From assembly GCA_017510065.1 (NCBI GenBank), contig JAFWOB010000177.1:1-45296 (forward strand): DNA of 45,296 nt, read 5' to 3'. The stretch is from Parasporobacterium sp. Its GTDB lineage: Bacteria > Bacillota > Clostridia > Lachnospirales > Lachnospiraceae. A program made the position numbers and the translations under genes. Below, piece after piece: positions 5,247 through 34,715 of this stretch (position 1 is its first letter; the number at the start of each line of letters is the position of its first letter). Below the pieces are notes generated by a model. The model saw only the letters and a program-made list of their open reading frames with translations, was not told the DNA's origin and searched no databases.

Positions 5247-5248
5247 GA

Positions 5249-9577: not shown

Positions 9578-9607
9578 ATTATAGTGTAATCTGTCCTGCC
9601 CTGTCAA
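9578..9607 (-). promoter_or_regulatory. Consensus promoter of purA-purB
   Basis: TTGACA (9602-9607) and TATAAT (9578-9583) on the minus strand match consensus perfectly with an 18-base spacer. Transcription should begin near 9571. The terminator of the upstream NlpC/P60 gene lies just before it. Confidence 0.88.
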
Positions 9608-9634
9608 CGTACTTTTCTCCTTCAGGCAGGGCAC

Positions 9635-9667
9635 GAAAAAGGGGCTGAACCTTTCGATTCAGCCCCT
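9635..9667 (-). terminator. Rho-independent terminator after NlpC/P60 gene
   Basis: AGGGGCTGAA (9667-9658 on the minus strand) pairs with TTCAGCCCCT (9649-9640) around an 8-base loop, then TTTTTCG follows. It begins 19 bases after the stop at 9686. Confidence 0.92.
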
Positions 9668-9685
9668 CATGGGTTCTTTCAGGAA

Positions 9686-15256: not shown

Positions 15257-18200
15257 TCAATCATTTGCGACCGGATTGCCGTTCAGTTTTCCAATGGTCC
15301 AGTTGCCTACCATACCGTCACTGTATCCCAGGCCGTTTTTCAGCTGGAATGCATTCACCGCTTCCTTTGTATAATTCCCATAGATACCGTCAGGCGTCAC
15401 CTTCAGATAACCCAGTTCATATAAGCGCTGCTGAACCGTCTTTACTTCGCTGCCGGTAGACCCCACCTTCAGGGTTTCGGAGATCGTCAGCTTATCAGAA
15501 GAGCCGGAGTTGCTGCCCTTCGGGATCGGATTGCCGTTCAGCTTACCAATGGTCCAGTTTCCTACCATACCATCGCAGTATCCAAGGCCATTTGTCAACT
15601 GGAAATCATCCACAGCTGCTTTTGTCTTGTTTCCATAGATTCCATCCGGCACTGCATCCAGATAGCCCAGTTCATACAAACGCTGCTGGACTGCCTTCAC
15701 TTCATTCCCTGTGGAACCTACTTTCAGGGTTTCCGAGATTGTCAGCGTTCCGGAAGGTTCAGAACTGTCAGAGCCGCCGGGATTGCTGCCGTTCTTCGGC
15801 ACCGGATTGCCGTTCAGCTTTCCGATCGTCCAGTTGCCTACCATGCCGTCACTGTATCCAAGGCCGTTGTTGATCTGGAATTCTTCCACGGCCGCTTTTG
15901 TCTTGTTTCCATAGATCCCATCCGGAACCGCATCCAGATAACCCAGTTCATATAAACGCTGCTGGACCGCCTTTACTTCGCTGCCGGTGGATCCCACCTT
16001 CAGGGTTTCGGAGATCGTCAGCTTATCAGAAGAGCCGGGATCGCCGGAATTGGACCCGGCGCTGGCTTCCCGGAGTTTTCCCATGGTCCAGTTCCCGACC
16101 ATACCATCCGGTTCACTCAGGCCGCTTGCTTCCTGGAACGCGATAACAGCCGCTTCCGTGTTTCCTCCGAAGGCACCGTCTGCCACATCATCCAGATAAC
16201 CCAATTGAATCAGTTTTTCCTGTACCTGACGAACATCTTCACCGGATACGCCTCTTTTCAGCACCCTGGTAAGTTCCAGCATCGGCACAGTCCTGTAGAC
16301 GCTGAGGGTTGCGCCGCAGACGGTGCAGGTACTGCTTTCTGTCTGGCCTGCTGAGAAATAGGTCGCTGCAACAGCCGGCACCAGAACATTCTTTGTATGT
16401 CCTTTAGCCGGAATAGTCTTCTGCGCCGTGATCACCGTGCCGCATACTGAACAGTGCGTTCCTTTTGTCTTGCCAGGCGTCGTACAGTTGGCAGCCACCG
16501 CAGGATCCGTAACGACGGTATGGGCTTTCAGCGGACCGAATTCTTCTGTCTTTGTCTCACTGCAGAGCTTGCACTTATAAGTCTTAATACCCATCTTGGA
16601 GCAGGTGGGCTGTGATGTGATCGTTCCTTTGTCCCATTCATGGACCGGACTTAAAGTCAGTTCGGAATCACTGTAGATCAGACGGGTATCGGAAGAATAC
16701 TTATAGGTATAAGTCGTGCCTCCGATCACAAACTGATAGCCGTCATCCACAGTCCCACTCATAGGCTGCACCATATACAGGCGGTTGTTTCCGGAATAGC
16801 CATCGGAGTTTGTCAGATCGACCATATAATTCTTGCCGTCATTCAGTTTCACGATGTTCCACAGATGTCCCCCCACAGAGCCGGATCCTGCCTGAAATGT
16901 TCCGGACACGCTGTAAACTGCCTGCACTTTCCCTGAAAAACCGCTCTGGTCGCACAGATACTGAAATGCCTTGGCATATCCTTCACAGACGACATTGGTT
17001 GTGCTGTCTCCGTCAAAAACATAAATGATCTGCCAGGGATTACCGTAGCCGCCCGGATAATTAGCGCTTGTGATGGAATGATCATAAGTCACCAGACTGC
17101 AGATCTTCTGACGATAATAATCCAGCTTCGACAGATCATCCTTTCCGGCAGCAGCGGAAATGATGCCGTTCACGGTTGAAATGGTACTGTTGATCGCATT
17201 GATCTTGGCAGGTTTCGTTGTATAAGAGTCCGCTCCCTGATAATCCTGGGCCACGGAAAGGTTAATGGAGATCGTGACGGTTTTCATCGTCATGACATAA
17301 TCTTTGATCGTGGAATCATAAGCTACGACAGGCGTATATGTCTTATTCAGCGTATACTGATTACCGAACCAGAACATTTCACAGGGACAGTCACGAATCA
17401 GGGATTTTACGGCTGCTGCAGGGTCATAAATCTGGTTAATGGCTGTATTGGCCGCTGTTTTGTTAATCGTAGTCCGCGCTTCATCACCGAACAGGGTGCT
17501 GACCCCAAGATCAGATGCTGTCCATTTGTAGGAAGACAGATTCGAAGCCGTCAGGCTTTTGGTCATCTTTGTACTGGTTATGGAACCGTTCGCCACTTTG
17601 CTTACGGTAGTTTTCAGCTCATCATAGATGATCTTTGTAAGATCAGAAAGCTTATTGCCGTTATAGCTGCTGGCATAAAGAGGCTCAATGGAATACACCA
17701 TCATCCCGTCTTCAACGAAAGCGCCTTCTCCCATACCGATGTACTCACTCAGCAGTGAGTCAGAATCCATATTCAGGTATTCATACATGACCTGGGAATC
17801 AGAAAACTCTTCTGCGATCTCCACAAATTCCTCTTCGGTTGTTTCTTCTTCCGTATCTTCCGTTTCTTCTTCCCGGGGATCGGTCTCTTCTTCTGTTCCT
17901 TCTTCCGTTTCTTCTTCTGTTATTTCTTCGGCTGCTGTTTCCGATACGTCCGCATTGGCTTCATCTTCGGTTGGTGTTTCAGCCGTCTCTTCCTCGGCAG
18001 CTTGTTCCGGCTCTTCTTCGGTAACCTCTTCCGGACTCTCTCCGGACTCTTCCTCAAAGGTCTCTTCCGGCAGCGCTTCAGGCTCTTCCTCCGGCAGTAC
18101 TTCGGGCTCTTCTTCCGGAATCTCTTCTGCCGCTGGATCTGTTGTTTCAACAGTTTCCTCTTCTGCCGTTTCTTCCTCTGTAACTGATTCTTCTTCTGTT

Positions 18201-18379
18201 TCCAAAGTGAGTGTGTCGACAGTAATCACTTCCTGTGAAGCAGGCTCTTCCATCAAGAGATCAGATGCTGCCTGACTCTCCAAAATGCTTTCCTCTGCCG
18301 CTGCCGGCATGGAAATAACAGAAGCCGCCATCACTCCTGCCAATAAAAACACTGTTAATTTCCTTATAAATAAGCTCAT
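15257..18379 (-). CDS. Secreted transglutaminase-like wall protein, four PG-binding modules
   Basis: The 1040-residue product has a signal peptide (1-28), a Glu-rich linker (about 50-195), a transglutaminase-like core (about 420-525) with Cys465 in VVCEGYAKAF, His505 in GGHLWN and Asp521 in MVDLTNSD, then CxxC-containing segments (590-695, for example YKCKLC and THCSVCG), and four peptidoglycan-binding-1 modules (about 707-770, 794-857, 885-948, 970-1033). The triad resembles microbial transglutaminase/protease domains; whether it crosslinks or cleaves is unknown. The last three modules are nearly identical. AAGGAG lies 9 bases before the ATG, and a promoter candidate is at 18425-18453. It heads a unit with the acyltransferase and a glycosyltransferase. 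Confidence 0.9.
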   Translation of the reverse strand: MSLFIRKLTVFLLAGVMAASVISMPAAAEESILESQAASDLLMEEPASQEVITVDTLTLETEEESVTEEETAEEETVETTDPAAEEIPEEEPEVLPEEEPEALPEETFEEESGESPEEVTEEEPEQAAEEETAETPTEDEANADVSETAAEEITEEETEEGTEEETDPREEETEDTEEETTEEEFVEIAEEFSDSQVMYEYLNMDSDSLLSEYIGMGEGAFVEDGMMVYSIEPLYASSYNGNKLSDLTKIIYDELKTTVSKVANGSITSTKMTKSLTASNLSSYKWTASDLGVSTLFGDEARTTINKTAANTAINQIYDPAAAVKSLIRDCPCEMFWFGNQYTLNKTYTPVVAYDSTIKDYVMTMKTVTISINLSVAQDYQGADSYTTKPAKINAINSTISTVNGIISAAAGKDDLSKLDYYRQKICSLVTYDHSITSANYPGGYGNPWQIIYVFDGDSTTNVVCEGYAKAFQYLCDQSGFSGKVQAVYSVSGTFQAGSGSVGGHLWNIVKLNDGKNYMVDLTNSDGYSGNNRLYMVQPMSGTVDDGYQFVIGGTTYTYKYSSDTRLIYSDSELTLSPVHEWDKGTITSQPTCSKMGIKTYKCKLCSETKTEEFGPLKAHTVVTDPAVAANCTTPGKTKGTHCSVCGTVITAQKTIPAKGHTKNVLVPAVAATYFSAGQTESSTCTVCGATLSVYRTVPMLELTRVLKRGVSGEDVRQVQEKLIQLGYLDDVADGAFGGNTEAAVIAFQEASGLSEPDGMVGNWTMGKLREASAGSNSGDPGSSDKLTISETLKVGSTGSEVKAVQQRLYELGYLDAVPDGIYGNKTKAAVEEFQINNGLGYSDGMVGNWTIGKLNGNPVPKNGSNPGGSDSSEPSGTLTISETLKVGSTGNEVKAVQQRLYELGYLDAVPDGIYGNKTKAAVDDFQLTNGLGYCDGMVGNWTIGKLNGNPIPKGSNSGSSDKLTISETLKVGSTGSEVKTVQQRLYELGYLKVTPDGIYGNYTKEAVNAFQLKNGLGYSDGMVGNWTIGKLNGNPVAND
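15281..16021 (-). repeat. Three near-identical copies of a wall-binding module
   Basis: Copies at about 15809-16021, 15536-15745 and 15281-15493 each encode LTISETLKVGSTG, a YELGYL helix and DGMVGNWTIGKLNGNP. They differ at few residues, while the fourth module upstream (about 16070-16260) is clearly diverged, which indicates recent duplication or gene conversion. Confidence 0.88.
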
Positions 18380-19463: not shown

Positions 19464-20615
19464 CTACTCCCGGTTCCGGCGGTCTTTCAGTTTATCGATC
19501 CCCAGTTTTACCGTATAGACGAAGCCATGGTCCCGGATGCAGTATATGCCGCCGTTGATCTTCTTCCACAGCTTCATGAATTTCGTATCATCGTCAAATT
19601 CGATGTCCACTGCCCAGATACCGTCAAGCCATTTTTCTTTGAATTTGGCAGGATCCTGTATGATCAGGAGAAACGCTTTCCATTTATAAGTCACGAAACA
19701 GGAACGGTCTGCATAACCCATTTCCAGCTCATGTTTGAATTCCTCAGATGCCCGCTCCAAAAATTTCAGCTTGATGGATTCGTCCAGACGGTTCACATTC
19801 CATATATAAGCATCGTATTTGAGCCGCACTTTGACGCCTTCCAGCTTTCCTTTCAGTTCCGGATGAGAATCCAGAAAATCATCGATTGCCTGGTATTCAT
19901 CGCACAGGCAGTATGCTTTTCCCGGATTGTTGATGGAGGACTGCTCATTATCCTGCCGATAATGAAGGACACAGTCAGTCAAAAGGCGAACCCTCTTTGC
20001 CAGCGCATACACTTTAAAATTAAATGCCGTGTCCTGGAAAGAAGCACCTGGGGTCTCATTCAGCCGGATCTTCTGCCCTTCGATAAAAGAACGCCGGTAA
20101 ATTGCCGACCAGATGGATGGTTTGATATTAAAGAAATCCACCTGTTCCAAAGGTGCCTTAAAATCCGTCAGCGGACAGAATACCCGCGACGCCATGACTT
20201 CCGAGGCAATGGGAGATGGTTCATCTTTTGCCGCCGGTTTAGACCAGTAAAAGTAAAACCCGGCTTTACACACATCCAGGTCATCTTTCTTTGCTGCCGT
20301 ATACAGCTTTTCAAACATATCCGGTTCGGCAAAATCATCTGTCTCCACGATGCCCAGATATTCTCCATGCGCATGGTCAAATCCCAGGTTAACCTGATAG
20401 CCGTAGCTCTTTCGATCAGAAATGACAAGATGCACCCTTGGGTCCTTCGCTTCATAAGCCTGCAGCTTTTCCAGAGTGCCGTCGGTGGATCCGGCGTCCA
20501 CACAGATCACTTCGATTTCCTTCAATGTCTGCTTAAGAACGCTGTCCACACATTCTTCAATATAAGGCCCTACGTTCAGTGAGGGCATGATGATCGATAC
20601 TTTTGGATTATCCAT
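19464..20615 (-). CDS. Family 2 glycosyltransferase
   Basis: The 383-residue protein opens with VSIIMPSLNVGPYIEECVDSVLKQTL and VICVDAGSTDGTLEKL, then GYQVNLGFDHAHGEYLGIVETDDFAEPDMF with the metal-binding TDD near 95. The C-terminal half (about 150-383) resembles other large glycosyltransferases of teichoic or capsule loci but has no named domain that I recognise. The ATG has AAGGAG just upstream and lies within the end of the ABC ATPase gene (8-base overlap), so these are coupled. It probably elongates or decorates the polymer exported by the neighbouring transporter. Confidence 0.88.
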   Translation of the reverse strand: MDNPKVSIIMPSLNVGPYIEECVDSVLKQTLKEIEVICVDAGSTDGTLEKLQAYEAKDPRVHLVISDRKSYGYQVNLGFDHAHGEYLGIVETDDFAEPDMFEKLYTAAKKDDLDVCKAGFYFYWSKPAAKDEPSPIASEVMASRVFCPLTDFKAPLEQVDFFNIKPSIWSAIYRRSFIEGQKIRLNETPGASFQDTAFNFKVYALAKRVRLLTDCVLHYRQDNEQSSINNPGKAYCLCDEYQAIDDFLDSHPELKGKLEGVKVRLKYDAYIWNVNRLDESIKLKFLERASEEFKHELEMGYADRSCFVTYKWKAFLLIIQDPAKFKEKWLDGIWAVDIEFDDDTKFMKLWKKINGGIYCIRDHGFVYTVKLGIDKLKDRRNRE

Positions 20616-21381
20616 AGATCTCCTTTATCTCTTCCAGAGAGTTCCATCCATTCAGGAATGCTTCATAGTTATCACAGATCTGCTGCACATCGGTGCCGAA
20701 AGTGATCTGTTCCCCTTTATGGAGCCACAGGATCTTATTGCACATATCCCTGACCTGCGTCAGGTCATGGGAAACCAGAATGGTGGTGGCTCCTCCGGCA
20801 ATGATCTCCCGGGTCTTTTCTTCACTCTTTTTGCGGAATCCTCCGTCACCGACTGCCATAACTTCATCCAGGATCAGGATCTCCGGCTGCACGAAACTGG
20901 CAATGGAAAAAGCCAGCCGGCTCTTCATACCGGAAGACAGGTGCTTAAACGGCCGGTCCTCAAACTCCTTCAATTCCGAAAAAGCGATGATCTCATCATA
21001 TTTCTCCGTCATGAATTTTCGCGTATAGCCAAGCAAAGCCCCACGCAGGAAGGTATTTTCCTTTACCGACAGTTCCCCATCAAAGCCGCTTCCCAGTTCC
21101 AGAAGCGCCACAACGTTGGAGTTGCAGATCACTTCTCCCTCCGTAGGCCGCATGATCCCGGATACCGCCTTCAAAAGCGTAGACTTACCGGCGCCGTTGG
21201 ATCCGATAATGCCAAGCATATCTCCTTTTTCCAGCGAGAATGTGATATGTTTGTCAGCATAGAAATTCTCGGCATAGTAAGTGCCCTTCAATTTCTTGAC
21301 TACCCAGTCTTTCAGTCCGATATCCTTAAAATCCCCCACCCGGTATACGATGGAGACATCTCTTACATCCAGCACACTCAT
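20608..21381 (-). CDS. ABC exporter ATPase for polysaccharide/teichoic acid (TagH/Wzt-like)
   Basis: The nucleotide-binding domain shows Walker A GSNGAGKSTLL, the signature LSSGMKSRLAFSIASF, Walker B EILILDEVMAVGDGGF and the switch His in LVSHDLTQV. VMAVGD after Walker B and the N-terminal extension with VYRVGDFKDIGLKDWVVKKLKG are typical of Wzt/TagH proteins that drive export of lipid-linked glycans. It lacks the long carbohydrate-binding C-terminus of some Wzt proteins. The frame opens at a TTG (21405); the ATG at 21381 is the likelier start. It follows the permease by 78 bases, with an imperfect hairpin in between, and works with it. Confidence 0.93.
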   Translation of the reverse strand: MSVLDVRDVSIVYRVGDFKDIGLKDWVVKKLKGTYYAENFYADKHITFSLEKGDMLGIIGSNGAGKSTLLKAVSGIMRPTEGEVICNSNVVALLELGSGFDGELSVKENTFLRGALLGYTRKFMTEKYDEIIAFSELKEFEDRPFKHLSSGMKSRLAFSIASFVQPEILILDEVMAVGDGGFRKKSEEKTREIIAGGATTILVSHDLTQVRDMCNKILWLHKGEQITFGTDVQQICDNYEAFLNGWNSLEEIKEIYG

Positions 21382-21459
21382 AGATTCGTTTCCATTCTCA
21401 GTCAATAACAGTCAATTATCAAACAGGCTTCCGAATAGTCCGGAAAGCAGTTATTCAGA

Positions 21460-22233
21460 TTATACATAATACAGGAACCGCCAGTTGAACCGGTGGTAGA
21501 TGAACCCGCCGATCGCAATCAGTAAAAGAGCCGTTCCCAGAATAAACATATGGTATCCGAAGCTTGGGATAAAACCATTCAGCACAATATCCCTGAAATA
21601 CACGATATTCTGATACACCGGATTCACATACAGGAGTTTCTGCAGTGTCGGCGGAAAACTCCTGACATCATAGAAGATCGCTGATGCATACATGAGAAGC
21701 ATCGTAAAGATCGGCCAGATGTGGGCAACATCCCGGAAGAAAATATGAAGTGCCGACAGAATCAGTCCTACTCCTACATTGACCAGCAGAATGCAGATGA
21801 TCGGATAGATCAGCATCAGAAATCTCCAGGTAAAAGGTACTCCGTCAATCGCGCAGAAAATGAAGAACACGATCAGAGTCAGGCCGAAATTGATGAGCGC
21901 CTGTACATTTTTAGCCAGCAGGAACAAATACTTCGGCACATTGATCTTCGTGAAGATATCCGCATTCCATAACAGGGCGGTCATGCCGTAGTTTGTTGCG
22001 TCATTAAAATAACTGAACAGGATATTTCCGCAGAACAGATAGATCACGTAGTGCTCGATCGTCGCTCCGAAGAAATTGGAGAAAATAAAGTTCATAACCA
22101 GCAGGATCAGTAAGGGAGAAATGATGCTCCACAGCATCCCCAGTACCGATCCTTTGTACTTGGTCTTAAAATCCCGTTTCACCAGCTCCTGAAATAAGAA
22201 GCCGTGTTTTTTCATCTTCTGAATAAAGTTCAC
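21460..22233 (-). CDS. ABC-2 polysaccharide export permease (TagG/Wzm-like)
   Basis: This has the ABC-2 exporter permease pattern: ELVKRDFKTKYKGSVLGMLWSIISPLLILLVMNFIFSNFFG as amphipathic start and first membrane helix, six predicted helices, and a C-terminal INPVYQNIVYFRDIVLNG-like segment (here YVNPVYQ). Wzm and TagG move undecaprenyl-linked polymers out of the cell. GTG at 22233 is the best start, since GAGGG lies 8 bases upstream and the previous gene stops one base before it; an in-frame TTG/GTG further upstream lacks a ribosome site. The ATPase partner is next. Confidence 0.93.
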   Translation of the reverse strand: MNFIQKMKKHGFLFQELVKRDFKTKYKGSVLGMLWSIISPLLILLVMNFIFSNFFGATIEHYVIYLFCGNILFSYFNDATNYGMTALLWNADIFTKINVPKYLFLLAKNVQALINFGLTLIVFFIFCAIDGVPFTWRFLMLIYPIICILLVNVGVGLILSALHIFFRDVAHIWPIFTMLLMYASAIFYDVRSFPPTLQKLLYVNPVYQNIVYFRDIVLNGFIPSFGYHMFILGTALLLIAIGGFIYHRFNWRFLYYV

Positions 22234-22234
22234 G

Positions 22235-24955
22235 TTAATATCCCTCACCAATCAGTGTCCAATTATTCTTATCATAAATATCGCCATGGACGGAATAGAA
22301 ATAACCGTCCGATGTATCAAACACCTGTCCCCGGTTTACATTGATATCCCAGATAAAGGCACTGGTCACGATCACCTCGCCCGTTTCTGTTTTAGCAGAG
22401 TCATCAATTCTCTGTCCTGTAAACGGGTTCACAGGATCTGCAACCATTCCCTCGAGCGCAATGGACGGAACATCCGCGTTCGTCATAAATGTTTCATCCG
22501 TGCAGAAATCCCCGGATGCATCAAAATCTTTTACCATCAATACCGGATTCAGGCCTTCTGCATCCAGTTCATCGTCAATCTTCAGCTCCTCCACTTCATG
22601 TTTCGGATAGCCATGGTCTGCTACAATGATGATCCGTGTATTGTCATAGACTCCCAGTTCTTTGAGATGATCAAACCAGGCTCCAAGTTTCAGATAGGCA
22701 GCCATCGCCGTATCGTAACCTGCCACATCATTCTGATACCGCATCTGCAACGCACGGTCTTCCATCTGGAACCGTTCCATATTGGCCATGATCTCCACAT
22801 TGGCGGAATCCGGCACCGTATAATCCGGAAGTTTCAGGATAACATCTTCATGTGCCGTATTATTATCCATGAGCAGGACATGACCTTTCTCTTCCTCATC
22901 AACGCGGGTGACCGATGGAAGCGAACACAGGGTATTGTAGTGATTCAGGAAGATCGAAGACGGGGAACACACAATATTTGTCGTCGTGGAATGATAGTTG
23001 CCCTCATCATAGATCGTCAGCTGCAGAAACTCCGGAACACACTTGAACACACTGTAATAAATAAAGTTTCTGATCTGTTTCCGGCTGAACTGGTTATAGC
23101 CGGCTTTTGTTTCCTCAGATCCGTAAGAGTCCTTGACGATAAACGCTTCCACGTTTTCCATACCGTCAAAAATACTCAGATCTCCGCTCCAGGTATAGCC
23201 GGAATAGGGAGGATTCACCACCGTCACCTGATACCCGTTTGTCCCGAAGAGCGCAGGCATAAGTTTCAGCGCTTCATTATGTTTATCCGCCAGATCCACG
23301 TTGCTTCGCTCGTTCATTCCAGTCACAGAGTATTCGTATCCTCCGAAAAGAGCCGGGGATCCGTAATTGGTCGACATTCCGAAACTGACCGTATTGGGAT
23401 AAAAGGTAAACCCGGAAAATGTGCTGTTAAGTTCCGGTTTCTCATTGAAAATATACGGAATATAGGCTCCTATGCTGCGATCCAGCATCAGTACGATCAC
23501 ATTCTTTCCCGAAGAACTGAACGTGATCTCCGGGATCTCGCTGGAGATCCTGGGATCTCCTTTCTGGACAGCTGCCATCGTGTTCCGGATCGTCATGGTA
23601 CTGGTGATCAAAAGACCGATGATCCCGACGATCATCACGATATACAGATAAGAGGCATACTTTCGAAGGAACCGGATGACCAGGATCATGGCAATCACCA
23701 CCAGGGCAATCACCAGAAGGTTCAGGAATTTTTCTCCCAGCGAAAACCAGGGCTTTTCATCAAACACCAGGTAAGAGGATACTCTGCCGAGATTCCGTCC
23801 GAACAGAAGGTACCCCATCGTTGCCGCACCGGAAAGCGCCATCATAAGATACACAAACAGGTGTTTTCCCTTTTGTGTCATCAGATAGAAAAACACATTG
23901 AACCAAACCAGAAAGACTCCGGCAAATGTTGTTACACAGTGAAATACCAGAAGCCCGGGGGTAACGTCTACGGTGTAGAATTCTGTTGCAGAAGAACTGA
24001 TGACAGACAGCGGGATCACCGCTCCTGTCAGGATCGTCAGGAAAATCTCACCCAGCAGTACCAGCCGGATCGTCAGTTTCCGTGAAGCCGGTTGTTCATC
24101 AGGCACCTGTTCTTTCACAGGATCCTTCTTCCGGAAAGCCAGTACCAGAGGCAGCTGACAGATCAGCAGAAGAACGACGCAGAATGCGATCCGTTTTGTG
24201 GAGATCAGTTTCCCGGTCAAAAGAAGCGCCAGAAACACCGCGATCCCCGCGGCGCTCACCAGAACTCCCAGGATCCTGCGGTCTTTTACCAGCTTAAGGA
24301 ATACATTTTTCAGCAGGGAAAAGATCTGATTGCAGGTCCAGTAAATGACAAGACCTGAAGGGCTGTTGTATAAAAGCACCAGGAAGAACGCAGCAAGCGC
24401 ATAGGTCTGGATCTTCTGGCTGATAGGAAATCCCCGTAAATAAATATACGATGCAATGACATTGATGAGCGTCATCAGGATCGGGAGAATATTAACGGTA
24501 AAGCTTCCGATCTGAAACAGCTGATCCGGTGCTCCCAGGTCCCTGACAAACCAGAACGAAACGCCTTTTAAAAGAGTCAGGTTGGAAAGATACCGATATG
24601 CTGCCATAAAAAACGGGATCTGAAGAAGCAGGGACAAAGAACCTTTCAGGGCGTGGATCGGCTTATAATCCTGCTGTCTGTAGTAGGTATTGAGCATCAT
24701 ATAACGCTCATCCCCACTGAAGGTTTTCTTGATATGATCCACCCACCCCTTCATAGAGGCCTGTTTATCCCGTTCCTTTTCCTGTATTGCATCTGCCCGC
24801 CGATATAAAGGAAGGCACAGCAGGTTCACTACGATACTCAGAATAAATAAAACATAAGCCGGACTGTCCACCAGCCGGTTTGCCACGGAAAAGATGAACT
24901 CAAATAAGAGACTCAGCGGCATAATGATCAAATTGTAGAAAAATGTTCCAATCAT
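22235..24955 (-). CDS. YidC/Oxa1-like membrane domain fused to sulfatase/phosphoglycerol-transferase-like domain
   Basis: The 906-residue protein has two parts. Residues 1-225 align by eye with YidC/Oxa1: SIVVNLLCLPLYRRADAIQEK, then LLLQIPFFMAAYRYLSNLTLLKG, and SPSGLVIYWTCNQIFSLLKN. The Arg expected in the first core helix (as in IVRGIMYPL of E. coli YidC) is Asn44. About eight further hydrophobic helices follow (230-455). Residues 484-840 form an alkaline-phosphatase/sulfatase-superfamily domain: NVIVLMLDRS (metal Asp492), a candidate nucleophile in STNYGSP (528-533), LLMDNNTAHED (His702) and IIIVADHGYPKHE (Asp780-His781). This superfamily includes LtaS and phosphoethanolamine transferases. 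It starts in a 4-base overlap with the CDP-glycerol-transferase gene and runs into the ABC permease, so a role in modifying or making the exported polymer is inferred. Function unproven. Confidence 0.82.
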   Translation of the reverse strand: MIGTFFYNLIIMPLSLLFEFIFSVANRLVDSPAYVLFILSIVVNLLCLPLYRRADAIQEKERDKQASMKGWVDHIKKTFSGDERYMMLNTYYRQQDYKPIHALKGSLSLLLQIPFFMAAYRYLSNLTLLKGVSFWFVRDLGAPDQLFQIGSFTVNILPILMTLINVIASYIYLRGFPISQKIQTYALAAFFLVLLYNSPSGLVIYWTCNQIFSLLKNVFLKLVKDRRILGVLVSAAGIAVFLALLLTGKLISTKRIAFCVVLLLICQLPLVLAFRKKDPVKEQVPDEQPASRKLTIRLVLLGEIFLTILTGAVIPLSVISSSATEFYTVDVTPGLLVFHCVTTFAGVFLVWFNVFFYLMTQKGKHLFVYLMMALSGAATMGYLLFGRNLGRVSSYLVFDEKPWFSLGEKFLNLLVIALVVIAMILVIRFLRKYASYLYIVMIVGIIGLLITSTMTIRNTMAAVQKGDPRISSEIPEITFSSSGKNVIVLMLDRSIGAYIPYIFNEKPELNSTFSGFTFYPNTVSFGMSTNYGSPALFGGYEYSVTGMNERSNVDLADKHNEALKLMPALFGTNGYQVTVVNPPYSGYTWSGDLSIFDGMENVEAFIVKDSYGSEETKAGYNQFSRKQIRNFIYYSVFKCVPEFLQLTIYDEGNYHSTTTNIVCSPSSIFLNHYNTLCSLPSVTRVDEEEKGHVLLMDNNTAHEDVILKLPDYTVPDSANVEIMANMERFQMEDRALQMRYQNDVAGYDTAMAAYLKLGAWFDHLKELGVYDNTRIIIVADHGYPKHEVEELKIDDELDAEGLNPVLMVKDFDASGDFCTDETFMTNADVPSIALEGMVADPVNPFTGQRIDDSAKTETGEVIVTSAFIWDINVNRGQVFDTSDGYFYSVHGDIYDKNNWTLIGEGY

Positions 24956-26205
24956 TCCGAATCTCCCTTGAGCTGTTTAAGCTTTGCAGCCAGATAGTCA
25001 CAGGTTCTTACAGCTGCTTCTCCCCGGTACGCCCAGGCTTCGGCGCGGGCGGCTACTCTTCCTTCCCGGTAAACGTCAGAACCCAGCACCTCATCGATCA
25101 CATCCTTCATGCGGTCAAAATCAGAAGGCTCCAGCTTCTTTCCAAGCCTTGACAAAACATCCAGCGTCCACGGCGTGTAATCCACCCATGCAGAATCATA
25201 AGGTGCCCGATCCATGGAAACATCCGCGTACATAATGGGTTTGTCGAAGATAAAGGTATAGTCGAAGATCACGCCCGAATAATCCGAGATCATCAGATCT
25301 GATTCAGACAGAACCCTATAGTTGTCGTTTTCATAGTTCCACTCAAGATTATCATTCTCCGGGAATTCCGTCATAAGCTTGTCCAACAGGTCTTTTTCCG
25401 CAGTCTTTGACTGGGGATGCGGTCTGATGATGATCTTGTATCCTGTCTCAATAAGTTTTCTGATAAACTCTGCGCCATAGCGGTTCAGGATGCTGCTTGC
25501 TCCCCAGGAAGGCGCCAGCAGCACGGTGGTACGCTCATGCGGAACAGGTGCCATGTGTTCCAGACGATCTTTCATGGTGTCCAGATAAGTACAGCCGGTG
25601 ATCGTAAGTTCCTTGGCCGGAAGGCCCCGCAGCTTTTCCAACAGGCGGATGCCTTTTGTCTGCACGTCGCCTGTTTCCAACACCGCATCATAATAATCCA
25701 GTCCAAACATCCGGTATCCCAGATTGTCCCCAGCCGAATGGTAAATATGCACATACCAGTCCACTTCCCGCGATCTCTTCCACTGCAGCACATCCAGTCC
25801 CGGTGTAGTGGCCATACAGATCGCTGCACGCATCGTATTCAGACGGGCAAATCCTTTGCTGCCTTCCCCGATGAATTCGCGGCTGACATATTCATAAGAT
25901 TCGGAAAGTGCCGGATCATCGGCAGACATCGTCCAGTAGCTGCAGGAGATATGACGGCGCTCCATTTCATCGCATACCGGCTTGAACACATTCCAGTAAC
26001 GCTTGTGGTCACTGAAAAAGACAAAGTCTACTTTGTCTTTATTGTAATCACCTGCGCCGGATCCTGATAATTTATATTTGAATTTGATCAGAAGGCCGCG
26101 CACCACAAAGATCATGGTCGTGACCAAACCAAGGATGACGGTCAGCAGCATGCTGCCGGTACCGGGATCTATATATGCTGTAAACGGATAATAATTCAAA
26201 TCCAA
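24952..26205 (-). CDS. CDP-glycerol:glycerophosphotransferase-like protein (TagB/TagF family)
   Basis: A short N-terminal AYIDPGTGSMLLTVILG segment and one membrane helix (about 15-38) precede a GT-B fold. The C-terminal half has the family blocks VLLAPSWG, YKIIIRPHPQS and SDLMISDYSGVIFDYTFIFDKPIMY, which contain the conserved His and Asp residues of poly(glycerophosphate) polymerases and primases. This suggests transfer of glycerol-phosphate or a similar polyol-phosphate to a polymer. The open frame starts at TTG (26205) two bases after GAGG; the TTG at 26199 is spaced better. It overlaps the next gene by 4 bases. No CDP-glycerol synthase (TagD) is seen in the window. Confidence 0.85.
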   Translation of the reverse strand: MDLNYYPFTAYIDPGTGSMLLTVILGLVTTMIFVVRGLLIKFKYKLSGSGAGDYNKDKVDFVFFSDHKRYWNVFKPVCDEMERRHISCSYWTMSADDPALSESYEYVSREFIGEGSKGFARLNTMRAAICMATTPGLDVLQWKRSREVDWYVHIYHSAGDNLGYRMFGLDYYDAVLETGDVQTKGIRLLEKLRGLPAKELTITGCTYLDTMKDRLEHMAPVPHERTTVLLAPSWGASSILNRYGAEFIRKLIETGYKIIIRPHPQSKTAEKDLLDKLMTEFPENDNLEWNYENDNYRVLSESDLMISDYSGVIFDYTFIFDKPIMYADVSMDRAPYDSAWVDYTPWTLDVLSRLGKKLEPSDFDRMKDVIDEVLGSDVYREGRVAARAEAWAYRGEAAVRTCDYLAAKLKQLKGDSE

Positions 26206-26213: not shown

Positions 26214-27296
26214 CTAACGATAGAACTTATAAATGTCCTTCAGATCATGGACCCCGGCGTCACTCAGGAGGAAAGTTCTTTCCCGCCCGGTGAGATCCAG
26301 ATACCAGTTCATCGTCTCCTCCATGCATGGTACCGCCCTTCCGACAGCATGCGCAATCTCAATCAGGATTGCCAGTCCGTAGGAAAAATCCGCCGTAAAG
26401 TAGCGGGAATCGAAATCCGGTACCCAGCCTCCTTCTGACTCTTTCATCGGAGAACGAAGACCATGGAATGCCTTGATGCTGCGGATCTTGGCTGTCATGG
26501 CCGGTGCATCCGGACTTTCGTAATAGATCCGGAGCGGCACGACATGCGTCAGATCCATCTCCTTCATGATTTCGATCATGTGTTCCAGCTCCTGATCGCA
26601 TTTCAACAGAAGCTGTGAGGACTCATCCGTCCACTCTTCATAGAACAGGAAGTTATGATCGTAAATGACGCCTTCCCTGTAGTCACCGAACATGGTACGC
26701 AGTCTTGTGGTATGAAGGATCGGATTCGAAGGTGTCAGGGTAACATTCAGATAATTCGGAAGAAGCGTGCATTTCGTCCGGAACACACTTTCCATCAGCA
26801 TTGCCGCTTCCTGTGCCCTGCCTGCGGGCACCGACGCCAGAAACAGTTCCTTCTTGCGTCCTTCAATGCACACCTGGCTTCCATACTCATTTAACCGTGC
26901 AATGGAGGGAACCCTCTGCAGGCCAAACAGAACAGCCCCGGCACGGACGCAGTCCGCAAAAGCAAATTCCGCTCCGCCCGTCCCCGGGATCACTCCGATC
27001 TGCATGCCTTCTTCTATGTAGGGCAGCATCTTCTGCGCGACAGAAGCGAACATAAAGGCCGGAACGATCACAAAGATAAAAAGACAACCAGCCATGGCCA
27101 GACTGATGTCATCAGTCGCCATGGCTATGGTACCTTCCCTTAATACGGTTCCTTCTGAATCCACGATGGACAGTTGTTTCCGGAAGCGTTCCGGTCTGGA
27201 GGTATATATATTGACTTCATAACCTGCGGCGGCAAATTCACAGGCAAATTCCGTGCCGATGTTGCCGCCGCCTATAATCAGTATTTTTTGGTTCAT
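26214..27296 (-). CDS. Octopine/nopaline (opine) dehydrogenase-family protein
   Basis: The N-terminus KILIIGGGNIGTEFACEFAAAGYEVNIYTSRP is a Rossmann dinucleotide-binding site (GGGNIG at 8-13). Later blocks, GVIPGTGGAEF, SIARLNEYG and SNPILHTTRLRTMFGDY, with a C-terminal helical domain, match NAD/octopine-nopaline dehydrogenases, which reductively join an amino acid and a keto acid. The His in NPILHTTR is the family's catalytic His. It sits 6 bases after the L,D-transpeptidase stop and 8 bases before the CDP-glycerol-transferase-like gene, with no good ribosome site, so coupling is likely. Its product in a surface-polymer operon is unknown; a polymer substituent or wall amino-acid derivative is possible. 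Confidence 0.85.
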   Translation of the reverse strand: MNQKILIIGGGNIGTEFACEFAAAGYEVNIYTSRPERFRKQLSIVDSEGTVLREGTIAMATDDISLAMAGCLFIFVIVPAFMFASVAQKMLPYIEEGMQIGVIPGTGGAEFAFADCVRAGAVLFGLQRVPSIARLNEYGSQVCIEGRKKELFLASVPAGRAQEAAMLMESVFRTKCTLLPNYLNVTLTPSNPILHTTRLRTMFGDYREGVIYDHNFLFYEEWTDESSQLLLKCDQELEHMIEIMKEMDLTHVVPLRIYYESPDAPAMTAKIRSIKAFHGLRSPMKESEGGWVPDFDSRYFTADFSYGLAILIEIAHAVGRAVPCMEETMNWYLDLTGRERTFLLSDAGVHDLKDIYKFYR

Positions 27297-27302: not shown

Positions 27303-29696
27303 CTATGGACGTACAACTACTACTTTCGTTCCCAGCGGGATGTTATAGTAGATCCATTTTGCTCTCTCAATATCCATACGTACGCATCCGGCGGAAAGAT
27401 TAAGTCCCAGACGGGAGTCCGTACGGTTGAAAGTATTCTGGGAATACAGCGTGGAATGCATCAGATACGGGCCATAGAAGCTGGTGTAGTAATAGCAGGA
27501 ATACCCTTCTCCGAATACATATCCTCTGGCGCTTGTCGTGTATTCTCCCAGAACAGTGGGATCTGTATCTCTTCCGGTATCGACTGCCCAGGTATCATAC
27601 AGTTTCCAGGCACCTCTGTACCCATTGTACAGATACAGTCTGTTCGAGGTTGCATTGATATAGATCAGCCAGCTGGTCCAGCTGGAATACCCCTGCACGC
27701 TGTATGGGTTGGCAGTAAAATCATTGATATTGTACAGATAGTACAATGTTTGGGCGTCTGCCTGACCGGTCTGGGGAAGTCCGAACCATTTCTGGATCTG
27801 TTTCACTGCCATCTCGGTATGGGATCCGAACCATCCGTCAACGCCATTGACATAACCGTAATTGTACATTTCCCTCTGCATTGCCTTGATCTCTGAGGTA
27901 CTGGAGTTCGGTGTGATCGGTTTGAAAGCTGCCGGAGATCCATTCAGAAGATTCTGTGTCCAGGATCCGACTCTTCCGTCCGGCACACTCAGTCCATTGG
28001 CTGCCTGGAAAGCGCAGACCGCTGCATAGGTGGCGCCGCCGAAATTACCGTCCGGTTCTACAATAAGATAACCAAGCTCATAGAGTTTCTGCTGCAGGGC
28101 ATAAACTTCACTGCCGGAATCACCTTTCTGGATCCCGCTGCCTACAGGAGCAGTACCATTCAGGATTGCCATGGCTGTATCAAGATTGACGACGCCGTTT
28201 TCTTCCAGATCAAACAGCTGCTGGCAGAGTTTGACAGCGCTTAAGGTTTTTCCTCCGAAGATTCCGTCCGGCGTTGCAGACAGATAGCCTCTGTTTACAA
28301 GATACTTCTGGATCAGTTTTACAGCCGGACCGGTGCTTCCTGCCTTAAGGCTGCTGAAATTCTTATGAGATCCCAGAAGTACTCCGTAAGTCCAGTTTCC
28401 AACCAGACCGTCCGGCGTTTCCATTCCGTTAAATGTCTGGAACAGCATGACAGCAGATTCTGTATCCGTATCAAAAATACCCGTTATAGCACCATCGTAG
28501 AAGCCTGCGTCTTTCAGGAGGTTCTGCAGGTTGGTGACATCTGCACCGCTCATTCCTTTTTCCAGTACCCTCATGGAGACACCGGCACCTCTTGCCAGGA
28601 GCATAAAGGTATCAATCTCTGCAATAACTTTTGTTCCCAAACCATTTACTGCTTTGAAACACTTCAGGGCCTGATAGGTCTTTCCTCCGAAGATTCCGTC
28701 TGGTTCAGCATCGAGATACCCCTGCTGCTTCAGGCAGGTCTGAAGGAACTTAACACCGGTATTGTTCATACCCGGGGTAATCTTGTAGTAATGGGGTTTT
28801 GTCCGCAGGATAGAAGTCGACCAATTGCCGACCATACCGTCCGGATTGGACAGACCCTGCTCTGCCTGGAAAATATTCACAGCGGCTTCTGTATATCCGC
28901 CAAAAACTCCATCAGGTTCGACAGTCAGATATCCCCTGTCATAAAGCACCTGCTGCAGCGCAAGAACATCATCGCCCGTCATGCCTCTGGCAAGCACCCT
29001 GGTCAGGGCGGTGTAATCCAGGACAGTGGGAGCCTTGATCTCTTCGCCGCATTCGGAGCAGTAAGTACCGCCCTTCTGCCCCTTGGTAAAGGGAGTGGCT
29101 GCTTTGTCTTCATAGGCAACCGGTGTATGGGTATGGTCTTTGTTCTGCGCATCCTCCTCAACGGTTGCTTCCTCAGAAACGACCTCTTCTTCGATCACCG
29201 GTGAATCCGGAACGATTGTTTCCTCAGAGGAATCGGAGATCTCTGTCTCTTCGATCACCACCGGTTCTTCCGGTACTTCCGGCACTTCCGGTGTTTCCTG
29301 TGTTTCTGTCGGTTCTTCCGGAACCACAGGTGTTTCCTCCGGCTCCTGAACAGGTGTTTCTTCCGGTGTTTCTGTCGGTTCTTCCGGATCTTCAGGATCT
29401 TCTGCCGGATCAGACTGTGGTTCAGGATCTTCTGTCACAGAACCTTCCGGTGCATCCGGATCTTCCTGCGTCACATCCGTCGGATCTTCTTCCACAGCTG
29501 CAGGGAGTACTTCTGTAAGATCTTCCTGTCCGGCTGCTTCCGGGTTTTCCTGCGTATCAACTGTTTCTTCAGAAGCGATGACTGCCGGATCTTCTGCCGG
29601 AGCTTCTGCTTCCTCTGCCATTGCCGTATAGGACAGCATGCCGGTCATTACAAGCACAAGTAAGATTGCTGTTATACGTCTGAACATCGTTTTCAT
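27303..29696 (-). CDS. Secreted L,D-transpeptidase (YkuD) with six PG-binding modules
   Basis: A signal peptide (1-28) is followed by a long Glu/Pro/Thr linker (about 30-190), a small CxxC segment (TYCSECGEE, about 211-220), six peptidoglycan-binding-1 modules (about 237-297, 309-367, 378-440, 452-513, 523-585, 600-655) and a C-terminal YkuD domain (675-795). The YkuD motif has His747 (LMHSTLY) and NLSAGCVRM with Cys771; the usual SHGCVR is SAGCVR here. Such enzymes form 3-3 peptide crosslinks or attach proteins. AAAGGG lies 9 bases before the ATG and a good promoter is at 29718-29746. It heads the operon that continues into the exporter genes. Its modules match those of the transglutaminase-like protein. 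Confidence 0.93.
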   Translation of the reverse strand: MKTMFRRITAILLVLVMTGMLSYTAMAEEAEAPAEDPAVIASEETVDTQENPEAAGQEDLTEVLPAAVEEDPTDVTQEDPDAPEGSVTEDPEPQSDPAEDPEDPEEPTETPEETPVQEPEETPVVPEEPTETQETPEVPEVPEEPVVIEETEISDSSEETIVPDSPVIEEEVVSEEATVEEDAQNKDHTHTPVAYEDKAATPFTKGQKGGTYCSECGEEIKAPTVLDYTALTRVLARGMTGDDVLALQQVLYDRGYLTVEPDGVFGGYTEAAVNIFQAEQGLSNPDGMVGNWSTSILRTKPHYYKITPGMNNTGVKFLQTCLKQQGYLDAEPDGIFGGKTYQALKCFKAVNGLGTKVIAEIDTFMLLARGAGVSMRVLEKGMSGADVTNLQNLLKDAGFYDGAITGIFDTDTESAVMLFQTFNGMETPDGLVGNWTYGVLLGSHKNFSSLKAGSTGPAVKLIQKYLVNRGYLSATPDGIFGGKTLSAVKLCQQLFDLEENGVVNLDTAMAILNGTAPVGSGIQKGDSGSEVYALQQKLYELGYLIVEPDGNFGGATYAAVCAFQAANGLSVPDGRVGSWTQNLLNGSPAAFKPITPNSSTSEIKAMQREMYNYGYVNGVDGWFGSHTEMAVKQIQKWFGLPQTGQADAQTLYYLYNINDFTANPYSVQGYSSWTSWLIYINATSNRLYLYNGYRGAWKLYDTWAVDTGRDTDPTVLGEYTTSARGYVFGEGYSCYYYTSFYGPYLMHSTLYSQNTFNRTDSRLGLNLSAGCVRMDIERAKWIYYNIPLGTKVVVVRP

Positions 29697-31905: not shown

Positions 31906-33231
31906 CTAGTATGTGCAGCTGAACAGGTGAATGTCTTCACTTTCCGCATTTTTCCACTCTACTTCCAGAGTACCGTTTTCCCCACCGGGAAGAATGAAAT
32001 CCGGACCGTCCCCGAAGTCCAGGATCTGTTTTTCCTCAGTTGTGCCATCAGGCGTTACGGTGACCCGGTATTCCAGTCCGCTGCTCCGATTGGCGATCAG
32101 GCTGCACAGACGTTCTCCTTCATCGGATTCAACAGGACCGGCGATCCCGTACACCTCAGGCTCCTTATCCAGGAGTTTTTCCTCAAAACTGTCGTAGAAC
32201 AGATCTTCTTCCCGGATCTGTCCGGTAAAGAACATACCGAAGACACGGCTGAAAGAAGCGGCACCCACATCATTCAGATGATCCGCGTCATAGAACAGGC
32301 TCTTATCTGCCGTATCAAAATACGAGGGTCTGCACAGGTTGAAATCATAATAGGGAACCTGCAGGTCATTCGCCAGAGTCCGGATCCAATCCGAGTATTC
32401 CTGATAGTCTCCTTTGCCTGCCAGTGTCCATTCCGGTTCCGGTACCATTACAAACGTCAGTTCCACGCTGTGCCGTCTGCAGTAAGAGACAATATCCCGG
32501 AGCGTCTGCATCCAGTCACCGTCTTCTTTTATTTTCCTCTGAACCTCCACCTCACCATAGGCGAGCTTGTTCCATCGCTCGTCCTGGGATACTGCCACGG
32601 TATTGCCGAAATACCCTTTGCCTCCGTAATAATCATGGGTGTCGATCACAAACCAGTCATAGTTCAGATAAGTTTCCGTATGCTTCTTCTCGTAAAGATC
32701 CGTCAGGTATTCCAGATCAAAGATGTCTTCCCAGTTCCTGCGAAACGGCAGAAAGCCGTTGGTATAATATTTCATGGAGCTGGCGTGCAGCAGAAACTGC
32801 AGTTTATTAAGGGACGGGCGCATATAGTCTGACACCAGATAAGTTTCTGTCATGGATGTGCGTGTATCATAATCCCTGGTATCGACCACTCCGTAATACA
32901 GATCCAGATAGACCTGCTTTACATCATACAAAGAGCATGCCTCCCTGATCAGCGCAAGGGAACCATCCAGCCTCTGGCTGGCCGTACTGAGATTAAACGT
33001 ATTCTGCCCGAACACCTCATCCGTTACTTCTGTATCAAAGGCTCTTCGCACATGGGAGGAACCTGCAAAAAGAACATCCAGGTTTTCGGATGCCTCATAC
33101 ATGTCATGCATCATAAGCCGGGAATAGGACTGCACATCATCGAATAGAAGATACTGCAGCAAAACACCGATTCCCAGAACCAGTGCTGCTGCAAGTATGA
33201 CCCCTATGATCCGTTTGATGATCTGTTTCAT
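31906..33231 (-). CDS. SGNH/DltD-like membrane-anchored protein, MBOAT partner
   Basis: One N-terminal membrane helix (about 8-28) anchors an extracytoplasmic domain beginning LDVLFAGSSHVRRAFD, with Ser58/59 as the likely nucleophile in the position of the SGNH first block, and ending with SLFYDADHLND (Asp315, His318), the DxxH catalytic block. Proteins of this type (DltD, AlgX and AlgJ relatives) work with an MBOAT acyltransferase to O-acylate surface polymers. The gene begins 11 bases after the MBOAT gene, with GGAG 6 bases before the ATG. The C-terminal region (about 345-441) is beta-rich and of unknown role. The acyl acceptor is presumably the locus polysaccharide. Confidence 0.8.
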   Translation of the reverse strand: MKQIIKRIIGVILAAALVLGIGVLLQYLLFDDVQSYSRLMMHDMYEASENLDVLFAGSSHVRRAFDTEVTDEVFGQNTFNLSTASQRLDGSLALIREACSLYDVKQVYLDLYYGVVDTRDYDTRTSMTETYLVSDYMRPSLNKLQFLLHASSMKYYTNGFLPFRRNWEDIFDLEYLTDLYEKKHTETYLNYDWFVIDTHDYYGGKGYFGNTVAVSQDERWNKLAYGEVEVQRKIKEDGDWMQTLRDIVSYCRRHSVELTFVMVPEPEWTLAGKGDYQEYSDWIRTLANDLQVPYYDFNLCRPSYFDTADKSLFYDADHLNDVGAASFSRVFGMFFTGQIREEDLFYDSFEEKLLDKEPEVYGIAGPVESDEGERLCSLIANRSSGLEYRVTVTPDGTTEEKQILDFGDGPDFILPGGENGTLEVEWKNAESEDIHLFSCTY

Positions 33232-33242: not shown

Positions 33243-34715
33243 TTAAAACTGAAAATAGATAAATGTACTGGTATCATAAGCCTGTCCGTAGATTCCCAAC
33301 AGAAGGATCGACCAGACCAGGCCCAGGTACAGGATCCAGCGAAACCAGATTTCCTGTCTGTTCACCAGCGCAGAAACCGACAATCCTTTTTCATGCATAA
33401 TATCCACCGCAAGCAGAACCAGGATCGCGACTCCCGCGATCCAGAGATTCACTTCATTCAACCCCAGATCCAGGATATTTGTGGTGCTGAAAACACAAAA
33501 CATCTGCCGGATCAGCTGCAGGGCATGGCTCAGTCCGCTGCACACAAAGAAGATCCAGGCAAAGTCGACCAGGACAAAAGTGATGATCACATTGCGAAGT
33601 CTGGCGCTGAACGAATCCTTGCCGAAAACATTCCAGCCTGTCTTCTTCCTGATCCTGCCCCTGACATCTCCTATGATCTGCAGCAGTGCATGCAGCAGTC
33701 CCCATGCCGCAAAATTCCAGCTTGCTCCGTGCCACAGGCCGCTGACCGCAAAAACGATCAGAATATTCAGGTACCGGCGGGCTTGCCCTTTACGGTTGCC
33801 GCCCAGCGGGATATACAGATAGTCTGTAAACCAGGAGGTCAGGGAAATATGCCATCTGCGCCAGAAATCCTTGATACTGCGTGCCAGATAGGGCTGACGG
33901 AAATTGTTCATCAGATCAAATCCCATCACTTTTGCCGCTCCCCGGGCAATATTGGTGTAGCCGCCGAAATCGCAGTAGATCTGGACAGCAAACAGAAAAA
34001 CCGCCAGGTTGATCTCTGCGAATCCGTAGCTGGTATAGTCATTGATCACCTGATCCACCAGTATGGAAACCCGGTCAGCGATCACGATCTTCTGGAACAG
34101 ACCCCACATCATCAAGAGGAATCCATCCCTCACCCGTTCGAAATCCCAGACCCTGATCTCCGCGATCTTCCGGATCTGCGGCAGAAGGCTGGAGGAACGT
34201 TCGATCGGTCCTGCCACCAGTTGCGGAAAGAAAGAGACAAACAAAGCATATTTCAGGATATTGCGCTCCGGGGTGATCTTTTCCCGGTAAACATCAAGGG
34301 TATAACTGAGAGCCTGGAACGTATAGAAGGAAATGCCTACCGGCAGAAGAAGGTCCAGTCGATAAGAAATGACCCCGATCCCGATCCGTGACAAAACAGA
34401 ACTGAGATTGGCGATCATAAAATTGCCGTATTTAAACACAGCCAGAATACCCAGGTTTATGATCAGGCTCAGAGCCACACACCATTTACGTGTCCTTACC
34501 CTCTCCTCTCCCCGGAAATGTCCGATCAGAAGACCGCTTGCATAAGTGACTGCTGTGGAAAACGCGATCAGAAGAGCGTATTTCGGATTCCAGCTCATAT
34601 AAAAATAATAGCTGGCGATCAGCAGCCAGATGTAGCGGATCTTCTTCGGTATCACGAAATACACCAATGTGACGACCGGAAAGAATATTAAAAACTCCAG
34701 TGAATTAAAGACCAT
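33243..34715 (-). CDS. MBOAT O-acyltransferase (AlgI/DltB type)
   Basis: The 490-residue protein has about eleven membrane helices. SWNPKYALLIAFSTAVTYASG, LLLPVGISFYTFQALSYTLDVYR and DFWRRWHISLTSWFTDYLYIPLGGN (His289) match the AlgI/DltB subgroup; SGLWHGASWNF carries the invariant MBOAT His329. These proteins pass acyl groups from the cytoplasm to an extracellular acceptor. It lies 4 bases after the Wzy-like gene without a clear ribosome site, hence coupled, and 11 bases before its SGNH partner. D-alanylation is unlikely because no dltA or dltC is present; O-acetylation is the better guess. Confidence 0.93.
   Translation of the reverse strand: MVFNSLEFLIFFPVVTLVYFVIPKKIRYIWLLIASYYFYMSWNPKYALLIAFSTAVTYASGLLIGHFRGEERVRTRKWCVALSLIINLGILAVFKYGNFMIANLSSVLSRIGIGVISYRLDLLLPVGISFYTFQALSYTLDVYREKITPERNILKYALFVSFFPQLVAGPIERSSSLLPQIRKIAEIRVWDFERVRDGFLLMMWGLFQKIVIADRVSILVDQVINDYTSYGFAEINLAVFLFAVQIYCDFGGYTNIARGAAKVMGFDLMNNFRQPYLARSIKDFWRRWHISLTSWFTDYLYIPLGGNRKGQARRYLNILIVFAVSGLWHGASWNFAAWGLLHALLQIIGDVRGRIRKKTGWNVFGKDSFSARLRNVIITFVLVDFAWIFFVCSGLSHALQLIRQMFCVFSTTNILDLGLNEVNLWIAGVAILVLLAVDIMHEKGLSVSALVNRQEIWFRWILYLGLVWSILLLGIYGQAYDTSTFIYFQF

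Follow-up and report, generated by a model that had tools for sequence, protein, structure and literature searches.

LtaS, GacH and MCR use ordinary phosphatidylglycerol or phosphatidylethanolamine as donors. For LtaS of Listeria, PMC4192460 gives Thr307 as the nucleophile and Glu263, Asp481 and His482 as metal-binding residues, together with His422. The membrane proteins YidC, Oxa1 and Get1 scramble lipids in liposomes, according to PMC10491306. For phosphonate tailoring, PMC6697681 describes the CMP activation step, calls the later steps enigmatic and mentions LicD-like genes nearby. Here we describe a gene in which the YidC and LtaS families meet. It lies at 22235-24955 on the minus strand of a 45,296-nucleotide stretch of Parasporobacterium sp. 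(contig JAFWOB010000177.1; "the window" denotes this whole stretch), and its product joins a YidC/Oxa1 domain with an LtaS-like membrane phosphotransferase. We refer to this gene as YS and to the TagF-like transferase gene directly upstream of it as GP. Because they co-occur, lie next to one another and are found fused, the YidC, GP and LtaS-like modules very probably work together.

The YS frame runs unbroken for 906 amino acids (aa) from 24955 down to 22235, with no internal stop. The one-frame fusion proposed in a first-pass annotation of this DNA is thus real, and the strand, which that annotation did not give, is minus. Pfam matches, conserved residues, a structural model and Foldseek all bear on the assignment. 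The YidC/Oxa1 domain spans residues 1-225 (24281-24955, minus strand), as had been read from the sequence; Pfam 60KD_IMP (PF02096) matches residues 36-220 with 73.7 bits (cut-off 35, E 2.2e-20) and the model agrees. The NCBIfam model yidC_oxa1_cterm scores 76.5 bits, under its cut-off of 84.3, and a profile of 100 YS sequences finds solved YidC (8.8e-11) and YidC2 (2.6e-7) in the PDB. Residues 226-475 (23531-24280, minus strand) form a linker and membrane region, and residues 476-906 (22238-23530, minus strand) an extracytoplasmic alkaline-phosphatase-superfamily domain. Model helices, hydropathy and loop charges together give a layout of a YidC core, two linking helices, five LtaS-like helices and an enzyme outside. 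In the AlphaFold2 model, built from 100 sequences (pLDDT 90.7, pTM 0.86), YS is accordingly predicted as a YidC domain added to a complete LtaS-like enzyme, whose own membrane part stays. The LtaS-type membrane part considered in the first-pass annotation is therefore present, but the YidC domain is no substitute for it, as by model and hydropathy the enzyme retains its own helices.

The enzyme half is recognized by its fold and its residues rather than by sequence score. The Pfam Sulfatase family (PF00884) matches YS with 17.8 bits, under the cut-off of 25; the predicted structure, however, is clear. A Foldseek search of the YS model against the PDB returned PbgA/YejM (8.5e-8) and LtaS (4.7e-7) at the top, with LtaP, a phosphonate monoester hydrolase, sulfatases and MCR-1 among the further matches. 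D492, T529 (within STNYGSP), H702, D780 and H781 are invariant in 113 of 113 full-length YS relatives. By analogy with LtaS, T529 is presumed to be the nucleophile and D492, D780 and H781 the metal ligands. Residues were matched to LtaS by motif and order, without superposition; placed in this way, Asp492 occupies the presumed position of Listeria Glu263 in all 113 sequences.

Relatives of YS are widespread. Thirteen of 150 genomes of the same family match it, and seven of these hold full fusions (10 proteins); the YS of genome G052 has a strongly diverged enzyme part. A scan of GTDB contigs gave at least 589 pattern matches, at least 574 of them coding for YS relatives; we kept the best 80, from 78 loci. 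Together with eight loci from other genomes and the window, these make up the 87 type-A loci used below. The best 80 kept include Lachnospiraceae, Oscillospiraceae, other Clostridia, Eggerthellaceae/Coriobacteriales, Solobacterium and Schwartzia, and YS carriers include gut and rumen bacteria. The prediction that both halves would occur on one polypeptide in several genomes was thus confirmed, both in the seven same-family genomes and in the GTDB loci. YS-like frames number 120, in 85 of the 87 loci; no YS was called in L040 and L052, where a longer frame on the opposite strand was chosen, and both are scored as "none" in the headgroup tally. We counted as full-length the 113 frames within 780-1100 aa, the seven excluded including an L079 copy split into two frames. 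The structure alignment (A2) took 99 relatives from these 113 plus the window. L116, which is the same genome as L084, was dropped from the mirror test and kept in the headgroup tally. Many loci carry tandem YS copies, with seven in L079 counting the split one; L079 and genome G235 hold large tandem arrays in which the YidC domains are near-identical and the enzyme parts diverged. In genome G081, short YS-like and nearby GP-like remnants (C3:39509-39703 and 39730-39840) are likely a decayed pair. The YS of L055 sits on a 4.3-kb contig binned as a Treponema metagenome-assembled genome, which is perhaps misbinned and otherwise a further diderm carrier. Carriage by mobile elements was considered and rejected: one phage record aligns at 23% identity over 32% of the query, and in six plasmid records the match is confined to the YidC part, with three annotated as yidC.

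GP (24952-26205, minus strand) overlaps the start of YS and encodes a TagF-like transferase that has a single membrane helix, with YIDPGTGS, at its N-terminus. PF04464 matches it with 51 bits (cut-off 22.1), and it carries an RPHP motif. Its model has a single long N-terminal helix at 14-46, the nearest fold is TagF with CDP-glycerol (3l7k, 6.8e-13), and the solved proteins nearest by sequence are Cps3D, Bcs3 and TarL. Among the 150 same-family genomes, full-length GP (at least 598 bits) is present in exactly the seven with YS and in none of the 143 others (p 3e-12), the next match below this set scoring 196 bits. In the type-A loci, the GP cluster comprises 77 genes across 74 of the 87. GP stands directly before 62 of 117 YS genes longer than 500 aa, on the same strand, and others follow another YS copy. 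Taking one adjacent pair per locus (57 loci), the gap between GP and YS has a median of 1 bp and is at most 30 bp in 55 of the 57. We also checked 13 genomes whose fetched locus lacked GP (11) or had it non-adjacent (2); twelve have a full GP, and the remaining one showed GP pieces only, some at contig ends. The GP alignment (A3) took 63 of 69 sequences. Co-occurrence and adjacency thus make GP the conserved partner of YS, and the link to a CDP-glycerol-transferase-like gene drawn in the first-pass annotation is well founded. At one locus of Schwartzia succinivorans (L092), a LicD gene (9173-9964, plus strand) takes the usual slot of GP before YS, and GP is found at another place in that locus. 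In the window, the gene immediately upstream of GP is octopine/opine-dehydrogenase-like (26214-27296, minus strand), and its cluster occurs in three loci only.

Other ARRANGEMENTS emerged through weaker GP matches, which led to frames of 645-714 aa with the YidC domain first and the GP domain after it. PF02096 and PF04464 are both over cut-off in the four YidC-GP fusions given to Pfam. Such fusions occur in 25 of 392 genomes of the order, four with internal stops and one cut at its start. The 31 loci that we read comprise 30 with YidC-GP and one, L185 of Coriobacteriales bacterium OH1046 (3352-7527, minus strand), with a single 1,391-aa YidC-GP-LtaS polypeptide that has all five catalytic residues. 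In this triple fusion PF02096 and PF00884 are over cut-off, PF04464 scores 18.6 (below 22.1) and the GP profile gives 166 bits; the same contig additionally holds a separate GP and YS pair (L192). Counting the triple fusion, 11 of the 31 loci have an LtaS-like enzyme, and several of the contigs end close by. From these loci 12 LtaS-like enzymes were aligned, and every one of them keeps the five catalytic residues, as do six of six further stand-alone ones; RPHPQ is present in 26 of the 31 GP parts. For a single origin of the YS and YidC-GP fusions, the approximately unbiased (AU) test gave p 0.51 for one clade. The same three modules therefore occur as GP with YidC-LtaS, as YidC-GP with or without a nearby LtaS, and as one chain.

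The YidC domains of YS form one clade apart from 43 stand-alone YidC proteins, with a support of 100/100 and a stem of 3.16 changes per site; stand-alone rows L163, L168 and L170 were omitted from this tree, and L165 and L167 additionally from the fusion-origin tree. Position 44, in the membrane groove, is Asn or Ser in 40 of 40 sampled YS (Asn44 in the window). The 43 stand-alone proteins have Lys (24), Arg (11), Tyr (5), Gln (2) or Asn (1) there, and Lys is found at this position in 6 of 6 aligned YidC-GP fusions. The idea that loss of the basic residue neatly marks a loss of insertase activity is weakened, as 8 of the 43 stand-alone YidC have neither Lys nor Arg. Within YS, conservation is among the highest in the YidC domain and extends there to polar residues inside the membrane such as T162 and N165. 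In the model the cytoplasmic-hairpin helices are retained, and the C-terminal tail is replaced by further helices. Of 15 YS genomes checked, 14 additionally have a stand-alone YidC, the remaining one showing only fusions and fragments; in G235 there are 12 YidC-domain places besides the stand-alone YidC, nine of them in frames longer than 800 aa.

Tandem YS copies (43 pairs within loci) are 89% identical in the YidC domain, 53% in the membrane region and 54-72% in the enzyme parts, compared with 60%, 31% and 37-61%, respectively, between loci. At four-fold sites, identity within loci is 58% for YidC and 40% for the enzyme, against about 30% between loci; both gene conversion and selection therefore seem to act on the tandem copies. 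Across 57 GP/YS pairs, evolutionary distances in the YidC domain correlate with those of GP at r 0.83 and with those of its own enzyme core at r 0.57, a difference of 0.26 on bootstrapping (0.17-0.35); GP and the enzyme core correlate at r 0.67. This pattern fits a membrane part that faces one shared partner or cargo and enzyme domains that face different acceptors, though part of it may reflect operon phylogeny.

The genes around YS suggest what may be carried. Within 8 kb, the 87 type-A loci hold a choline kinase with a nucleoside triphosphate (NTP) transferase in 18 cases, a phosphoenolpyruvate (PEP) mutase in six (two being one genome), an NTP transferase with a CobD-like enzyme in three and an NTP transferase without any of these in nine. 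EamA (12 genes), PEP mutase (6) and CobD-like (4) genes all lie within 3 kb of YS, with none at a greater distance in the same loci. Headgroup genes are likewise present in 18 of the 31 YidC-GP loci, with PEP mutase in eight, CobD-like enzymes in four and choline kinase in three. Among the same-family genomes, PEP mutase is found in 4 of 7 with YS against 10 of 143 others (p 0.0015). LicD, the usual transferase for phosphocholine, was not found in 8 of the 18 choline-type YS genomes, strain 1XD8-76 included, nor in 6 of 37 same-family genomes that have an over-cut-off choline kinase and no YS. A general absence of LicD from the choline-type YS genomes was rejected, as 10 of the 18 have it. Because the neighbouring genes often supply CDP-choline or CMP-phosphonate, the cargo is probably a CDP- or CMP-activated headgroup. 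The first-pass annotation had proposed the making or decorating of a surface polymer; the link to surface-polymer chemistry stands, and the two other fusion arrangements and the link to choline and phosphonate activation genes were beyond its reach.

Taken as a whole, and leaving the exact role of the YidC domain aside, YS and GP are probably the two halves of one transmembrane machine that would decorate a surface polymer with a phospho- or phosphono-group, X. X may be phosphocholine, a phosphoethanolamine-like group, 2-hydroxyethyl- or aminoethylphosphonate, or perhaps glycerol phosphate. From its fold and neighbours, membrane-anchored GP would load P-X from cytoplasmic CDP-X or CMP-X onto a membrane lipid, and the YidC domain would then pass or present the charged lipid across the membrane. 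The LtaS-like domain, judged by fold and residues, would take P-X onto Thr529 with bound metal and then transfer the group to an acceptor on the polymer outside the cytoplasm. Where YS occurs in tandem, the copies, almost identical in YidC but diverged in their enzyme domains, would serve different acceptors. That the YidC domain is a lipid conduit is plausible because YidC relatives scramble lipids in liposomes, and we propose it tentatively, by analogy. Equally cautiously, we raise the possibility that a branch of YidC/Oxa1 has turned from protein insertion to the transport of lipid-linked headgroups, as the transbilayer step, between a TagF-like loader and an LtaS-like transferase, of a machine that places phosphocholine and phosphonates on the surfaces of gut bacteria.

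Several observations weigh against this proposal. No headgroup gene lies within 8 kb in 51 of the 87 type-A loci, a count that includes the window and the two loci with no called YS, and many of the contigs are short. Genes for NTP transferase and choline kinase are little more frequent near YS than farther away (rates of 0.051 against 0.037 and 0.026 against 0.018, respectively). Of the four YS genomes that have PEP mutase, only G036 has it beside YS; in G004 its neighbour is a second GP, and G022 and G052 carry it on contigs other than that of YS, near a LicD in G052. The LicD contrast is weak (present in 10 of 18 against 31 of 37, p 0.045), the lineages differ and the genomes are incomplete, and leaving out one weak LicD match, or adding two further choline-kinase YS genomes, brings p to 0.059. 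In the window, the choline genes are about 13-17 kb or more upstream of YS, on the same strand, and the genome has one LicD on another contig. The PF04464 relatives of GP and the CDP-glycerol ligand of 3l7k suggest polyol donors. Finally, the membrane region of YS tracks GP about as well as the YidC domain does (r 0.82 and 0.83), so YidC as the sole GP-tracking part was rejected, and the tracking itself can be explained by operon phylogeny or uneven saturation.

Four other explanations were weighed. That the fusion is dead, or an artefact of frame or assembly, can be ruled out: nothing was found in favour of this, all five catalytic residues are kept in 113 full-length relatives, which come from many separate assemblies, and the assembly error that the first-pass annotation had allowed for is excluded because many separate genomes hold the same joined frame. 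A more serious rival is that the YidC domain is a mere docking platform for GP, with YS using ordinary phosphatidylglycerol or phosphatidylethanolamine and GP acting separately on a lipid-linked glycan. The YS enzyme fold is indeed nearest to enzymes that use ordinary lipid donors, co-divergence of GP and YidC fits simple binding, and YS has lost the basic residue of most stand-alone YidC. This account, however, leaves unexplained both the headgroup-activation genes and the strong conservation of the whole YidC fold, T162 and N165 included, and we consider it unlikely.

Alternatively, the YidC domain could be a dedicated insertase or chaperone for partner proteins such as the GP helix, polymerases or its own enzyme part. 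The PF02096 match, the retained cytoplasmic-hairpin helices and the groove Lys of the YidC-GP fusions all speak for this, but it is improbable given the separate stand-alone YidC in nearly all YS genomes checked (14 of 15), the replaced C-terminal tail and the very long branch to stand-alone YidC; the 12 extra YidC-domain places of G235 would also be odd for an insertase. It is likewise quite improbable that the product of GP and YS is a poly(glycerol phosphate)-like polymer in the style of lipoteichoic acid, with GP priming from CDP-glycerol and YS polymerizing. The TagF-like and LtaS-like folds would suit such a pathway, and at one locus, L119, a TagD-like cytidylyltransferase stands just before YS. 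The neighbouring kinases and mutases, however, indicate choline and phosphonates more often, and choline and aminoethylphosphonate lack a hydroxyl from which a chain could grow.

The window holds further genes. Directly beyond YS lies, as local context, a TagGH/Wzm-Wzt-like ATP-binding cassette (ABC) exporter pair (20608-22251, minus strand), assigned with Pfam, NCBIfam and a neighbour tally. A relative of its permease is found within 3 kb of YS in 2 of the 85 loci with a called YS, the window included, and anywhere in the fetched DNA in three loci. The exporter as a partner of YS was rejected, since it does not recur across loci, and the earlier expectations that exporter genes would always accompany the fusion and form part of a membrane machine were not supported. 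All other genes that we note here are also on the minus strand. A fusion of a helix-turn-helix domain, a MobA-like (LicC-like) NTP transferase and a LicA-like choline kinase (40298-42073) is a probable source of CDP-choline; its N-terminal winged-helix DNA-binding domain would join choline activation to possible self-regulation. Beside it are a second LicC-like nucleotidyltransferase (39561-40301), with no NCBIfam model over cut-off, and a BCCT choline/betaine transporter (38032-39564; PF02028, 415 bits). A choline-binding-repeat protein (42254-45199; PF19127, 213.7 bits) may be a surface reader of phosphocholine. An MBOAT (DltB-like) gene and a weak, below-cut-off GDSL match (33243-34715 and 31906-33231) are perhaps a pair that acylates a surface polymer. 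Two large secreted proteins carry peptidoglycan-binding repeats, one with a terminal L,D-transpeptidase (YkuD) domain (27303-29696) and the other judged by eye (15257-18379).

A literature search, which most subscription papers lay beyond, found no description of this YidC fusion. The available text of a YidC review (PMC7618853) has nothing on such a fusion or on a teichoic link, and that of PMC8675477 nothing on this fusion and no mention of sulfatase. Phosphocholine is a group seen by host immunity. If the proposed machine is real, it would provide the transfer step that is missing for CMP-phosphonates and, where bacteria have no LicD, for CDP-choline; YS and GP are then candidates for how phosphonates arrive at cell surfaces and how gut bacteria without LicD display phosphocholine. 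YidC/Oxa1 proteins are known for inserting proteins into membranes, whereas their lipid movement has so far been without a clear occasion, and the wiring of YS makes a lipid-transport role directly testable because the YidC branch sits between a cytoplasmic transferase of CDP-dependent type and an extracytoplasmic phosphotransferase in three arrangements.

Set against the known systems, YS shares with LtaS and LtaP the membrane helices, the extracytoplasmic alkaline-phosphatase-superfamily domain and the set of Thr, His and Asp-His residues. It differs from them in its fused YidC domain, in Asp492 at the presumed place of Listeria Glu263, in a PF00884 score below cut-off, and in having GP as partner and headgroup genes nearby. 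With YidC, SpoIIIJ and Oxa1 it has in common the PF02096 fold, the membrane helices and the cytoplasmic hairpin, but its domain is part of a larger protein and of a long-stem clade, with Asn or Ser at position 44 and an enzyme in place of the tail. YS is thus neither a plain YidC insertase, as both the groove residue and the tree grouping are otherwise, nor simply LtaS. GP resembles the CDP-polyol phosphotransferases TagF, TarL and Cps3D in fold, sequence match and RPHP motif, and departs from them in its single N-terminal membrane helix with YIDPGTGS and in being paired with YS or fused to YidC. LicD phosphocholine transfer and Pnt phosphonyl tailoring have the same kinds of CDP-choline and CMP-phosphonate supply genes; LicD belongs to another Pfam family (PF04991) and, to our knowledge, needs no YidC or LtaS part. 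DltABCD works likewise, through cytoplasmic activation, a membrane conduit and extracytoplasmic transfer, with D-alanine rather than a phospho-group as its cargo, and we know of no protein family common to it and YS/GP. Each part of YS and GP is a known family; the proposed three-module machine, and the use that it would make of YidC, are new.

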